From: Gemmatimonadota bacterium
GTDB lineage: Bacteria > Gemmatimonadota > Gemmatimonadetes > Longimicrobiales > Gaopeijiaceae
Assembly (NCBI GenBank): GCA_009841475.1
Contig: VXLT01000361.1
Span: 1-37,395 of the forward strand
Length of the DNA stretch: 37,395 nt
Direction of reading: 5' to 3'
In this document: piece by piece, positions 7,334 to 27,712 of the stretch
How positions within the stretch are numbered: position 1 is the first letter of the stretch
Layout: each line of letters opens with the position of its first letter
The notes under the pieces: generated by a model
Told to the model about the DNA's origin: nothing
What the model saw: only the letters and a program-made list of their open reading frames with translations
Databases searched by the model: none
Program-made: the position numbers and the translations under genes

Positions 7334-8602
7334 ATGAGGCGCTGGCTGGGGAACACGCTGCGCGGGGTGTGCATGGGTGCGGCCGACGTCGTCCCGGGCG
7401 TGTCGGGCGGGACGATCGCGCTGATCCTGGGGATCTACCCGCGGCTCATCGATGCGGTGGGGGGGCTGGGGACGGGGCTTCTGCGCCGGGTGTGGTCCCG
7501 TTCGTTCTGGCACCTTCTCGGCGCGGGCGCGAAGGATCCGAGGCGGCTTCCGGGCGATGGCGCCGGCCAGGACGCGGGCCGTGTGCTCTTCCTTGCCTTC
7601 CTGGCGGCGGGGATCGTGCCCGCGATCGCGGCCGGCGCCCGCATCCTTCCACCGCTGCTGAGCCTGTATCCGGCGCAGATGCGGGGCCTCTTCCTGGGGC
7701 TGGTGCTGGCGTCGGTCACCGTTCCGCTGCGGGCGATGCGCAGCGGGGGGCCCTCGCGCTGGCTGCTCGGCATCGCTGCGGCGGTGGCCACGGCCTGGTT
7801 TGTCGGCCTGCCGCAGCCCACCTCCGAACGCGCCACCGGCCGCGTGCTGCTGGAATTCGCGGAACCCGCCGCGGCCGAGGTGCGACTGACGCCGCAGAAC
7901 CTGACCCTCCTGGCGCCCGGGGACGGGTCGCGCCCGGAGTTGGCGTTCAAGCCGGTCGGAGCGGCCGCGGCGCCCGCCGGTAGTACAGGCATTGAAGTCG
8001 ATGTCATTGCAGGCATGGTCGGCGCCGCGGGGAACGTGCCGCCGGGATCGATCCGGGTGGTGGAGGGGCCGGTCGGCGAACTGAGTGTCTCCCAACCGGA
8101 GGCCCTGAGCGGTGGACGGGATCCCTCTCTGGCATACCTGCTGCTAGGGGGCGTGCTCGCCATTTCGGCCATGGCCCTGCCCGGGATCTCGGGGTCCTTC
8201 GTGCTGCTGCTGCTGGGGCTCTACCACTACGTCCTCTACACCCTGTCGCTCGCGATCTACCACCAGGACGGGGGCGCCATCCTTACGGCGGGTGCGCTGG
8301 CGGCGGCCATGGCTGCCGGGCTGCTGAGCGTCGCGCGAGTGCTGAAGGGGATGTTCGCCAGGTGGCACGACCCGACCCTCGCCGTGCTGGTGGGGCTCAT
8401 GCTGGGGTCCCTGCGAAAGCTCTGGCCCTTTACCCGCTACACGGAAGAGGGCAGGGAAGTGGCGGTGCTGCCGCCCCTCGGCGATCCGGAGGTGGTGGCG
8501 GTGACGCTGCTGTTCGTGGCGGGCGTGGGTGCGGTGCTGGTGCTTGGCGCGGCCGGTCGCAGGCGTTCCCGCCAGGACTCGAACCTGGGGGCGCGCGGCT
8601 AG
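7334..8602 (+). CDS. DUF368 / PopT-type undecaprenyl-phosphate transporter, with long inserted loop
   Basis: 422 residues, a polytopic membrane protein. The duplicated family signatures are PGVSGGTIAL at 21-30 and LPGISGSFVL at 282-291. DUF368 proteins are known undecaprenyl-phosphate translocases that return the lipid carrier to the cytoplasmic face. Family members are usually near 300 residues. Here about 100 hydrophilic, non-helical residues (160-263) separate the two halves and could form an extracytoplasmic domain. The ATG at 7334 gives a natural N-terminus; an upstream extension looks non-coding. The last codons read through a tRNA T-arm-like sequence, and the stop shares CTAG with the convergent gene. 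Confidence 0.88.
   Translation: MRRWLGNTLRGVCMGAADVVPGVSGGTIALILGIYPRLIDAVGGLGTGLLRRVWSRSFWHLLGAGAKDPRRLPGDGAGQDAGRVLFLAFLAAGIVPAIAAGARILPPLLSLYPAQMRGLFLGLVLASVTVPLRAMRSGGPSRWLLGIAAAVATAWFVGLPQPTSERATGRVLLEFAEPAAAEVRLTPQNLTLLAPGDGSRPELAFKPVGAAAAPAGSTGIEVDVIAGMVGAAGNVPPGSIRVVEGPVGELSVSQPEALSGGRDPSLAYLLLGGVLAISAMALPGISGSFVLLLLGLYHYVLYTLSLAIYHQDGGAILTAGALAAAMAAGLLSVARVLKGMFARWHDPTLAVLVGLMLGSLRKLWPFTRYTEEGREVAVLPPLGDPEVVAVTLLFVAGVGAVLVLGAAGRRRSRQDSNLGARG
8568..8590 (-). other. tRNA T-arm/acceptor-like fragment at the 3' end of the DUF368 gene
   Basis: Bases 8568-8590 are identical to 17289-17311, the T-arm and acceptor part of the tRNA-Arg(CCT) gene. Read on the - strand they give stem CCAGG, loop TTCGAGT, stem CCTGG. 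No D-arm or anticodon arm is present, so it is not a tRNA gene. It encodes R-Q-D-S-N-L-G in the tail of the DUF368 protein. On the other strand it lies about 10 nt downstream of the cupredoxin stop, where it would form a hairpin in the mRNA. Confidence 0.6.
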
Positions 8603-9180
8603 TCCCGCAGTCCGGAGTCGCCCGACGCGGAGACTTCGAGCCCGATCCACATGCCCGTGACCGCATTGGCCGGGACCAGCGATACGAGCGAATACTCGCC
8701 GGCTTCCGAGGCGACGAACGTGAAGCTCCCGGTTCCGCCGCCGGGTGCCGTGGCCTCCGACATCGACGTGGCGTTGGAGGTGATGGCGCCGTCGAACACG
8801 GGCGTCGCTTCGTCGAAAATGGGCGGATAGCTCGCCGCCTTTGCGAGTACGCCGGCGCTGTGGTAGTGGACGGGGTCCCGATTCTCGAAGTTGATCGTGA
8901 CGGTGTATCCGACGGGCACGACGACCGTGGCCTCGCCGTTCGCGTGGCCATTGAAGTTCCAGCGGTTGTTTGCGTCGGTCTCGGCCGCAACGAGGGTGAC
9001 GGTGGCCGTGCGCGCCGCGGCGTCCACGGAGATCCAGTCCGCGGGCGTCGGGGCCGAGGCCGCAGCGTCCGTCTGCATGTCGGCACCGGGCGCGGAAGCA
9101 GGTGAGTCGTCTACTTCCCCGCCGCCGCATCCGAGGAGCGTGACGACGCCTACGGTCAGTATGATTGATTGCCTCGCCAT
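8599..9180 (-). CDS. sulfocyanin-like cupredoxin lipoprotein, copper ligands degenerate
   Basis: 193 residues. The N-terminus is a lipoprotein signal peptide with lipobox LLGC (C18), then an acidic/Ala linker to about residue 48, then a cupredoxin domain. The segment TVTLVAAETDANNRWNFNGH and the pattern S167-x4-N172-x4-M177 align with sulfocyanin, in which the last ligands are C-x4-H-x4-M. Here the Cys position is Ser and the His position is Asn, while H107 and M177 remain. A normal type-1 blue copper site is therefore unlikely. A G-rich RBS (GGGGGGACAGG) precedes the ATG. Known sulfocyanins are electron carriers; this one may have another role. Confidence 0.85.
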   Translation of the reverse strand: MARQSIILTVGVVTLLGCGGGEVDDSPASAPGADMQTDAAASAPTPADWISVDAAARTATVTLVAAETDANNRWNFNGHANGEATVVVPVGYTVTINFENRDPVHYHSAGVLAKAASYPPIFDEATPVFDGAITSNATSMSEATAPGGGTGSFTFVASEAGEYSLVSLVPANAVTGMWIGLEVSASGDSGLRD

Positions 9181-9254: not shown

Positions 9255-11489
9255 TCAATGGTTGCCGGCGTCCTCGCGGAGCGCTTCCACGCGCCACGAG
9301 AACTCCTCGTCGAGCTTCAGCGCCGTGCCGACCTGCACGAACTGGATGTAGCCGTCCCGGTCGACGAACCATGTGGTCGGCCAGGCTCGGACGGCGGCGC
9401 GTTCGGCGTAGCCGTCGTCGACCAGCACCGTGAAGTCGTAGTCGTTCTTCGCGAGGAAGTCCTCGATGATCTCGTTCGTTTCGTCGTTGCTGATCGAAAA
9501 GACGTGCACCTCGGGGTCGTGCCGGTAGCGTTCGTCGAACTCCTGGTACTCGGGCAGCTCGACGATGCAGGGGCCGCACCACGTCCCCCAGAAGTGCAGC
9601 ACCGCGACCTTGCCCTCGAGACCCGACGAGTTGACCATCTCGCCGTCCAGCCGCGCGAGTTCGAAGGGTTCGTAGGTCTCCGCGTCCTCCACGCGCGACT
9701 CCAGGATGCGCTCGTGCCGCCGGACCCGGTCCCGCTCGTCAAGCGTCGCGAGGTATTCCTCGATCCCCTCGCGGCTCCCGTTGCGGCGCTCGTACAGCGC
9801 CTCCAGAGCGGTCTCATTCGGATTCTCGCCGCGGCTGGCTCCGAATCCGGCGATGTAGGAGTCCTCGGCCTGGTCCAGCCAGGAGGTCGCGGCCTCGCCG
9901 TCCCCGTTCTCTTCGGCCTCGGCGGCCAGCTGCTCATACACCTGCCCGAGATGATACCTCACATTCCGGTCGTAGGCCGAGATGGCCAGCGCGCGCTCCA
10001 GCGTGTGACGCCCGTCTTCCGTGCGGCCGGCCTTGAAGTGGGCCCAGCCGATCACGTCGTAGATGCCGCTGAGGGTGCCCCGGAGTGCCCCGTCCCACTC
10101 GCCCTCCGTGTCGAAGAAGCTGCGTGCATCCTCCAGGCTCTCGAATACCCGGGGTGCGCCTGCGCGTATGATGTCGACCGCTTCCAGGGGGTACGGCGTG
10201 TGATCGATCATGGCCAGCGGGGCATCCCCGAACACGATGTGGGGATTCAGGCGCTCGTACTCCACCATGCCGCGGATGGCCTCTGCCAGCTCTTCGCCCG
10301 GGATGGGGTCCATCGACCTGAGCGCGGAGAACAGGTTGAGGTAGGCTTCGCCCTTGAAGCTGTCGTCGTAGAGCGGCCCGGCCAGGTAGTCGTGTACGGC
10401 GTCCCGGATAGCCTCGAGCTGGGCGCGGTATTCGGGGGAGTCCCTGCCGTGCTCGTCCACGATCTCGCGCATCCCCTCGTCCACCGCCCGCATCTTGGTG
10501 CGGCGCACCCACGATGCGTGAAAGCCGTCGGGGTCGATCGCTACAATCCTTGCGTCGAGTTCGGCCGCGCGCTCCTCGTCCTCCATCTGCCGGTACATGG
10601 AGGCCATGCTCTGCAGGCCCTCCACGGTTTCGGGGCTCGCCTCAAGGTATGCCGCCATGCCGGCTTCGACGGCCGGACGCCGCTCCTCTCTGGGGAGCAG
10701 GTCCGACATCCACAGACCACGCCAGTGCTGCGCCCGCACCTCCACCGATCCCGGCGCGAGTTCGAGAGCCGCCTCCATCAGGGAGGCCCACTCGTCCAGG
10801 CGGCGGTCGTTGTAGGCTTCGTTCGCGAGCCTCGTGTATCCGAGCACATGGTCCGGGAACCGTTCCTTGAACTCCGCCCACGTCGCCCGCATGGAGTCCG
10901 CCCAGGTCGGATCCTCCAGCTCATAGCGAGCCTGTGACTCGATCTCGGCCTCCATGCGCAGGACTTCCGGCCATCCGCGGGTCTCGTCGTCGAGTGAAGC
11001 GAGGAATTCACGCGCCGCCTCGAAATCGGCCCGCGACAGCGCCCGCAGGTAGAGGAAGACGAACTCCGGCTGTGGCGAGGCCTCCCACGCCTCCCGGGCG
11101 AGTTCGTGCGCGAGTTCGGCCTCGTTGTCGGCGTAATGCGCGTAGGCGCTGGTGTAGAGTCCCCAGGGATTCTCCGGATCGTCCGCCAGGATGGCGTCGG
11201 CCTGCTCGTGGACCTCCTTCGAGAGTCCCCACCCCACGAGCTGGTAGGCGTAGAGCGCGCGGAGTTCGGCGTCGTGCGGGGCGCGAGCGACCCACTCGTC
11301 GCCGAAGAGCTTCCCGGCTTCGAAGGTGCGGAGCCGCCGGTGGTCCCGAAGCTCGGCCTTGGCGGCGTCGAGTTCCTCGGGGGTGTAGTCGGGCGGGGTG
11401 CCGCCGTCTTCGCAGGCGCCAAGGATAAGGAGGATCCCGGTGAGAAAGAGCCCGGCGCTCGGGCCGGATCGGCGGGAACGCGTCGACAT
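9255..11489 (-). CDS. TPR lipoprotein with C-terminal TlpA-type thioredoxin domain
   Basis: 744 residues. The start is the ATG with GGAGG 6 nt upstream. The signal peptide ends in lipobox LGAC (C26). Residues ~60-600 are mostly helical TPR-like repeats. A TlpA/ResA-like thioredoxin fold occupies ~605-744, with active site W637-C-G-P-C641 and the cis-proline in AWPTTWFVD at P704. Such domains reduce or rearrange disulfides outside the cytoplasm, for example in cytochrome c maturation. The TPR part probably binds a client or partner. It lies 74 bp upstream of the cupredoxin gene on the same strand. The precise substrate is unknown. Confidence 0.88.
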   Translation of the reverse strand: MSTRSRRSGPSAGLFLTGILLILGACEDGGTPPDYTPEELDAAKAELRDHRRLRTFEAGKLFGDEWVARAPHDAELRALYAYQLVGWGLSKEVHEQADAILADDPENPWGLYTSAYAHYADNEAELAHELAREAWEASPQPEFVFLYLRALSRADFEAAREFLASLDDETRGWPEVLRMEAEIESQARYELEDPTWADSMRATWAEFKERFPDHVLGYTRLANEAYNDRRLDEWASLMEAALELAPGSVEVRAQHWRGLWMSDLLPREERRPAVEAGMAAYLEASPETVEGLQSMASMYRQMEDEERAAELDARIVAIDPDGFHASWVRRTKMRAVDEGMREIVDEHGRDSPEYRAQLEAIRDAVHDYLAGPLYDDSFKGEAYLNLFSALRSMDPIPGEELAEAIRGMVEYERLNPHIVFGDAPLAMIDHTPYPLEAVDIIRAGAPRVFESLEDARSFFDTEGEWDGALRGTLSGIYDVIGWAHFKAGRTEDGRHTLERALAISAYDRNVRYHLGQVYEQLAAEAEENGDGEAATSWLDQAEDSYIAGFGASRGENPNETALEALYERRNGSREGIEEYLATLDERDRVRRHERILESRVEDAETYEPFELARLDGEMVNSSGLEGKVAVLHFWGTWCGPCIVELPEYQEFDERYRHDPEVHVFSISNDETNEIIEDFLAKNDYDFTVLVDDGYAERAAVRAWPTTWFVDRDGYIQFVQVGTALKLDEEFSWRVEALREDAGNH

Positions 11490-26776: not shown

Positions 26777-27712
26777 TCAACGGCGAGAGGGCAGCATGCT
26801 GCGTATCACGAATCCCATATTTGCCGGCCGCTCGGCGAGGCGCCGAACGTACCACGGGAACCAGTGTGCTCCGTAGCTGATCAACACCCGGATTCCCTTC
26901 TCTTCGGCGGCCAGCCGGTCCTGTTGCCCGTCGCCGATCCCGTAGAGCATCTGGTACTCGAAGGCATCCGGCCCCAGGCCGTTGTCCTTGGCCCACGCGT
27001 CGATCCTGCGGATCAGCGCGGTGTCGTGGGTCGCGAATCCGGCGCGGAGCCCCGCCTTGCGCGCATCGGGGGCCAGCATGCGGCACGCCTGGTCGAAGAA
27101 TGCCTGGTCGACATCGGCCTTGACCGGCAGCGCGACGCTGGGCGGTTCTGCGTAGGCCCCCTTCACCAGCCGGATCGCGGGGCCCAGGGGCACCAGGGAC
27201 TCGAGGTCGGCGGGGGTTCTGTGCAGGTATGACTGGAGGCAGACGCCGAAGTTGCGGTGGTCGGCACGGATCGAGCGGTAGAGATCGAGCGTTGGATCGA
27301 CGTAGCGGCTGTACTCCATGTCCATCCAGACCCAGTTGCCGAGGGCCTCGGCGGCCCTGGTCACCAGCCGCAGGTTCTCCTCGGCCACGTCGAGCCCGAG
27401 ATCGAGACCCAGGTGGGTGGGCTTGACCGAGAGCTCCGCGTCGAGTCCGGCGGAGGCGACCATCCCGGCGGCGTCGACGTAGTGGTTCGCGACCGCGCGC
27501 GCTTCCGCCTGGTCGGCGACGTTTTCGCCGAGGAAGGTGATGAGCGTGGGGATTCCACGCTTCCGTTCGAGGATGCCGGCGGCGTCCAGCGCCTCTTCCA
27601 GAGTCTCCCCGGGCATGAACCTGCGTGTGGCGCGTTTGACGAAGCCGAGTCCGGGCAGGGTGTTCTTGCACCAGGAGTTTTCCGAGATCCACAGGAGTGT
27701 CGATCGTATCAT
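26777..27712 (-). CDS. monofunctional proline dehydrogenase
   Basis: 311 residues, the usual length of stand-alone proline dehydrogenases. The FAD-dependent enzyme oxidises proline to 1-pyrroline-5-carboxylate. Barrel signatures appear in order: LSVKPTHLGLDLG, WMDMEYSRYVD, IRLVKGAYAEP, GFATHD, FEYQMLYGI and YGAHWFPWYVRRLAERPAN, the last carrying the substrate-binding arginines. The P5C dehydrogenase partner is not in the window. It lies 75 bp after the glycosyltransferase gene on the same strand and may be co-transcribed. Confidence 0.95.
   Translation of the reverse strand: MIRSTLLWISENSWCKNTLPGLGFVKRATRRFMPGETLEEALDAAGILERKRGIPTLITFLGENVADQAEARAVANHYVDAAGMVASAGLDAELSVKPTHLGLDLGLDVAEENLRLVTRAAEALGNWVWMDMEYSRYVDPTLDLYRSIRADHRNFGVCLQSYLHRTPADLESLVPLGPAIRLVKGAYAEPPSVALPVKADVDQAFFDQACRMLAPDARKAGLRAGFATHDTALIRRIDAWAKDNGLGPDAFEYQMLYGIGDGQQDRLAAEEKGIRVLISYGAHWFPWYVRRLAERPANMGFVIRSMLPSRR

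Follow-up and report, generated by a model that had tools for sequence, protein, structure and literature searches.

The cupredoxin gene and its neighbour

The window, that is, the whole 37,395-nucleotide stretch of Gemmatimonadota DNA analysed here, carries at 8599..9180 on the minus strand a gene for a SoxE-family cupredoxin lipoprotein with a dismantled type-1 copper site, characterized by profile searches, Foldseek, and dN/dS. Its frame is open throughout, with no internal stop, and translates into 193 aa; the product is the single SoxE protein in the whole genome. The lipobox, which the original prediction had described as kept, is read as LLGC in the full-length frame, with its Cys18 at 9127..9129 (-). 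The same prediction held that the Cys and one His ligand had been lost from an S167-x4-N172-x4-M177 block of exact spacing, and the codons confirm both points. Measured against a type-1 copper site, Ser167 (TCG, 8680..8682, -) replaces the Cys ligand and Asn172 (AAT, 8665..8667, -) replaces the C-terminal His ligand, and the N-terminal His position (His107, 8860..8862, -) and the axial Met position (Met177, ATG, 8650..8652, -) are retained. The product is a small secreted protein with the build of a blue-copper carrier from which two of the four copper-holding residues are gone. Two residues before the retained His, in the motif HYHS, lies His105 (8866..8868, -), which is new in the window's genus and corresponds to Asn in Palauibacter. 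The original prediction was silent on this gain, and likewise on the S/N pair being one end state among several intermediates in the clade. Upstream of the cupredoxin by 74 nt, on the same strand, is a gene for a TPR lipoprotein with a C-terminal ResA/TlpA-like thioredoxin domain (WCGPC; 9255..11489, -, the start at 11489 being our own ORF reading).

Fold and family membership

The SoxE profile (PF06525) matches residues 50-185 of the window protein at 53 bits, compared with a Pfam gathering cut-off of 21. The score against the sulfocyanin equivalog TIGR03094 is 48 bits, far under the NCBI cut-off of 168.4, and a Palauibacter relative with all ligands also falls under that cut-off (62 vs 168.4). 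The predicted model is of modest confidence (mean pLDDT 63, and under 50 in the loop 167-175), and with it both structural comparisons place the SoxE domain in the cupredoxin fold. Foldseek against the PDB returns rusticyanin as the best match (E 2.3e-7, prob 1.00), and the top VIA-align matches are oxidase domains, auracyanin (Z 10.4, 110 aligned, rmsd 2.4-2.5), nitrite reductases, and rusticyanin (Z 9.6-9.7, 118-120 aligned, rmsd 3.1). A profile alignment pairs the Cys, His, and Met positions of auracyanin with those of the window protein without gaps. Because oxidase domains rank high in VIA-align, a multicopper-oxidase-like use of the HxH was considered, a motif that we take to resemble that of multicopper oxidases. 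The window protein has no over-cut-off profile match to the Cu-oxidase families; among its relatives, PF07731 matches weakly, below cut-off, in L019 and L021 and above it in L029. The PCuAC family is absent from the Pfam matches of the window protein up to E 1.

Ligand states among homologues

Ligand positions were surveyed in 132 unique homologues from 148 loci, with 16 further listed matches left out. Outside the genus, all 122 loop-covering homologues have Cys at the Cys position and 121 of them keep the C-terminal His, the exception being Phe in L131. That protein belongs to another family (genome G178) and is one copy of a tandem SoxE pair; its Phe represents another, independent loss of the C-terminal His. 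In the SoxE homologues L163, L164, and L165 the axial Met is replaced by Glu, and the Cys and both His are kept.

Within the genus, a SoxE gene is present in nine of 23 genomes, as eight intact copies and one that is frameshifted after the Cys (L009); the other 14 genomes have no SoxE protein. Listed as Cys, C-terminal His, and Met positions, the intact copies comprise one C/H/M form (L006), four C/N/M forms (L002, L004, L005, and L008), one C/T/M form (L007), and two S/N/M forms (L003 and the window). Only L006 therefore has both the Cys and the C-terminal His, and Asn172 occurs in six of the eight. At residue 172 the Palauibacter-type copies have CAC and the six Asn forms either AAT or AAC, and the two Ser167 codons differ, being TCG in the window and AGT in L003.

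His105 follows the boundary of the genus, occurring in 9/9 of its copies and in 0/123 homologues outside it. The residue is Asn in 12 Palauibacter-type proteins. At the codon level, six Palauibacter-type copies use AAC here and the genus uses CAC or CAT. Position 105 is among only six of 142 domain positions at which the genus and the 12 Palauibacter proteins have no residue in common. N105/H172 in the Palauibacter relatives and, mostly, H105/N172 in the genus make up a reciprocal exchange. In azurin, Met44 stands two residues before the N-terminal His (His46); published passages assign it to the second coordination sphere and count it among the hydrogen-bonding partners of the His ligands (PMC8154437, PMC12071310). 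By analogy, a His at this second-sphere place would be a plausible stand-in for the lost His.

Distribution and origin

The named relatives are metagenome-assembled Gemmatimonadota. The nearest relatives of the cupredoxin outside the window's genus are the SoxE proteins of the genus Candidatus Palauibacter. They fall in a genus group, including Candidatus Palauibacter (identical proteins), that belongs to another family of the class and in which 13 of 17 matches are 68-73% identical to the window protein; the next best match within the same family is 52% identical. On the simplest reading of these identities, the gene was probably acquired horizontally from a Palauibacter-like lineage. Palauibacterales are described as frequent in sponges and marine sediments in passages of PMC10469786.

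The paired thioredoxin gene

The partner gene is present in all nine SoxE-positive genomes of the genus and, at E 1e-60, absent from all 14 SoxE-negative ones. In each of the eight intact units the cupredoxin lies 1 to about 80 nt behind the TPR-thioredoxin gene on the same strand, and the WCGPC motif is intact. The two genes are on separate contigs in all 13 Palauibacter-type genomes in which both were found, which makes the pairing a feature of the window's genus; in a tblastn search of eight Palauibacter loci, none of the window's neighbours was found except the cupredoxin itself. Beside the window copy lies a DUF368/SurE block, and the pair is away from this block in four of eight stretches, which shows it to be more stable than the DNA around it. 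Partner-gene identities repeat the pattern seen for the cupredoxin, at 58-75% to Palauibacter-type copies over most of the length and at most 34% in other groups. Tandem TPR-thioredoxin genes, one ~74-75% and the other 58-60% identical to that of the window, occur in the Palauibacter-type loci L183, L184, and L186 (G189, G181, and G197) and in G244; the copy in G157 has an in-frame TGA.

Order of events

The cupredoxin is too short for its tree to resolve the genus, and one version pairs L003 with L002 (97/80). The partner-gene tree joins the window with L007 (100/100), places L005 next (99/99), and groups L003, L006, L002, and L004 together (100/98). On this tree there are two losses of the Cys and no fewer than three changes at position 172, most simply H to N on the genus stem, N to T in L007, and an N to H reversal in L006. 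The original prediction had proposed asking whether the S/N proteins form a clade, and they do not on the partner gene, where a grouping of the window with L003 is rejected (p-AU 2e-58); the cupredoxin alone is undecided (p-AU 0.316). As the Ser codons also differ, the genus has lost the Cys at least two times. A history in which the extra His came first and the His loss later, with L006 outermost, is disfavoured on the partner gene (p-AU 0.003) but not on the cupredoxin (p-AU 0.249). This order of events would change if the cupredoxin and its partner gene had recombined separately. The pairing outlasted both losses of the Cys, so in these two species the role of the thioredoxin cannot depend on that residue.

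Selection versus decay

Full-gene dN/dS is 0.18-0.54 in the genus (28 pairs, eight copies), compared with 0.08-0.25 in Palauibacter (15 pairs, six copies). For the domain, the values are 0.22-0.36 in four window pairs (bootstrap upper limits no higher than 0.64) and 0.19 in three Palauibacter pairs; the domain in the window pairs is thus under purifying selection, if to a somewhat lesser degree than in the copper-competent sister group. Residues 169-171 and 173-180, including Met177, are invariant in all eight intact copies, against a background of 48 of 142 domain positions that vary. Taken with the full length of the protein, the second, independent S/N form, and the retained pairing with the TPR-thioredoxin gene, the domain dN/dS supports the earlier proposal of a repurposed rather than decayed gene. 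The module can nevertheless be lost, as the relative G020 carries a broken copy. Both genes are damaged in that genome (L173, 5610-6702): approximately residues 175-684, counted on the 802-aa query, are missing from the TPR-thioredoxin, and the cupredoxin frame shifts after the Cys.

Possible roles of the window protein

Two of the copper ligands are lost, yet the protein is kept intact beside the thioredoxin gene, which indicates that it probably has a different job. Our best explanation, which as a whole we hold with about even confidence, is that the window protein is a repurposed cupredoxin working with its thioredoxin partner rather than an electron carrier of the blue-copper type. In this account a SoxE-fold cupredoxin, secreted and lipid-anchored, would have entered the genus from a Palauibacter-like lineage and lost its electron-transfer role there. 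Along the genus stem the C-terminal His would have become Asn and residue 105 His, after which the Cys ligand would have become Ser in two lineages, including that of the window. The fold and the ligand loop have been kept by selection, and the cupredoxin is the second gene of a two-gene unit after the TPR-thioredoxin lipoprotein gene, by both position and co-occurrence. Most likely, the protein would bind the thioredoxin lipoprotein at the cell envelope, as its partner or its client, and serve as a structural cupredoxin domain that lacks blue copper and has no more than a weak metal site of His105, His107, and Met177. Plastocyanin-type proteins (PF00127) were found in none of the 23 genomes of the genus, and PF13473 (Cupredoxin_1) was over cut-off in none of them, its two weak matches being cytochrome oxidase subunit II by eye; small blue-copper carriers of these families are therefore not part of the chain in this genus. 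We infer that the window protein is not an electron carrier. Type-1 copper without the Cys is very unlikely, and judging from the residues that are left, His105, His107, and Met177 could hold copper in another way. Four caveats apply to this repurposing model. Co-occurrence within one clade may reflect a single event followed by passive linkage, the higher full-gene dN/dS than in Palauibacter would also fit relaxed constraint, G020 has damage in both genes of the unit, and the clade is not uniformly without type-1 ligands, L006 being a complete C/H/M form.

The changes at residues 105 and 172 also bear on a possible, if somewhat unlikely, exchange of ligands, in which His105 replaced the C-terminal His and a new copper site was formed by His105, His107, and Met177, with Cys167 where it is kept; the Cys-less forms would then store or deliver copper at type-2-like or Cu(I) sites, like other Cys-free copper chaperones of cupredoxin fold. 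The restriction of His105 to the genus, at one of the few positions with nothing shared with Palauibacter, is consistent with such an exchange, as are the second-sphere place of the azurin residue in the passages cited above and the partner-gene tree, which most simply puts both changes on the genus stem and makes L006 a reversal. Passages of PMC6696091 further describe PCuAC proteins as Cu(I) chaperones that resemble cupredoxins and use two His together with two Met. However, both changes fall on a single branch as one event, which puts their coupling beyond statistics here, the model is of low confidence in the loop concerned (pLDDT under 50 at 167-175), and Thr172 in L007 together with the L006 reversal suggests that position 172 is loosely constrained. 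An extension of the same idea, which we regard as speculative and improbable, is a copper-site relocation in progress: N105H with H172N would have created an HxH site not needing the Cys, the Cys would then have been lost twice, and an electron carrier would be turning into a thioredoxin-linked copper-handling lipoprotein.

Relaxed constraint, under which the acquired cupredoxin is dispensable in the genus, its ligands going one by one with loss to come, is in our estimation an unlikely account. The 14 of 23 genomes without a SoxE gene, the full-gene dN/dS above that of Palauibacter, and the frameshifted copy with a large internal gap in the partner gene in G020 are all compatible with it, but they have to be set against purifying selection on the domain in the four window pairs, the invariant residues 169-171 and 173-180 in a domain with 48 of 142 positions variable, and the lack of stops or truncations in eight of nine copies. 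An error of sequencing or assembly at 8665-8682 is extremely improbable and was rejected. Although the window comes from a draft assembly of 369 contigs, six of the eight intact copies, from separate genomes, read Asn172, the S/N pair recurs in an independent assembly (L003/L021) under the other Ser codon, and reaching either Cys codon from TCG would take two base changes.

Comparison with known systems

The window protein shares with sulfocyanin/SoxE proteins (PF06525) an over-cut-off profile match, the fold, a secreted N-terminus, and the N-terminal His and axial Met positions; it differs from them in lacking the Cys and the C-terminal His, in its extra His105, and in falling below the equivalog cut-off. 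The Palauibacter SoxE proteins that were checked have N105, H107, and the C, H, and M ligands, and their genes are unlinked to the TPR-thioredoxin gene. Rusticyanin and auracyanin have the fold and ligand layout of the window protein but are themselves working type-1 copper proteins. Quinol oxidase subunit II (CyoA) resembles it as a respiratory cupredoxin domain that has lost its copper ligands, but the copper centre in question is a different one (CuA) and CyoA is a subunit of a membrane enzyme. Early nodulin-like phytocyanins (ENODLs) are cupredoxin members without the residues needed for copper (PMC10048054); they are plant proteins of another cupredoxin family, and the passages on them mention neither a gained His nor a thioredoxin partner. 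PCuAC, as described in passages of PMC6696091, has a Cys-free cupredoxin-like fold that handles copper via His and Met, and the TlpA-type thioredoxins described there act on copper chaperones and oxidase subunits. A Cys-free cupredoxin-like fold and a thioredoxin-like protein in the pathway are thus common to PCuAC with TlpA/Sco (PMC6696091) and the window, but the fold of the window protein derives from SoxE, with no match to the PCuAC family, and its thioredoxin is fused to TPRs. The window protein is a SoxE-fold protein outside the functional definition of a blue copper protein; its gain of a His was unexpected, and its thioredoxin partner is conserved. Of the original prediction, the observation holds in full and the interpretation in part. 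Among the titles and opening lines of abstracts that searches of an open-access collection returned, none was recognisable as describing this protein or, for any natural cupredoxin, an exchange of His and Asn.

Type-1 copper sites are the textbook example of a rigid metal site with fixed ligands. The close relatives described here, with the site intact, the His lost, the His and Cys lost, or the gene broken, beside an intact sister group, form a natural series in which to study how a cupredoxin serves once its blue copper is gone, and whether a metal ligand can change position with the fold preserved. The series also carries a warning for annotation: a SoxE domain match alone is insufficient for calling a protein a sulfocyanin or a blue-copper carrier.

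A proline-dehydrogenase-like gene, named by sequence appearance, lies directly after the cupredoxin in the Palauibacter locus L029 (5613-6539), and a similar one is found in the window at 26777-27712, 17 kb away.
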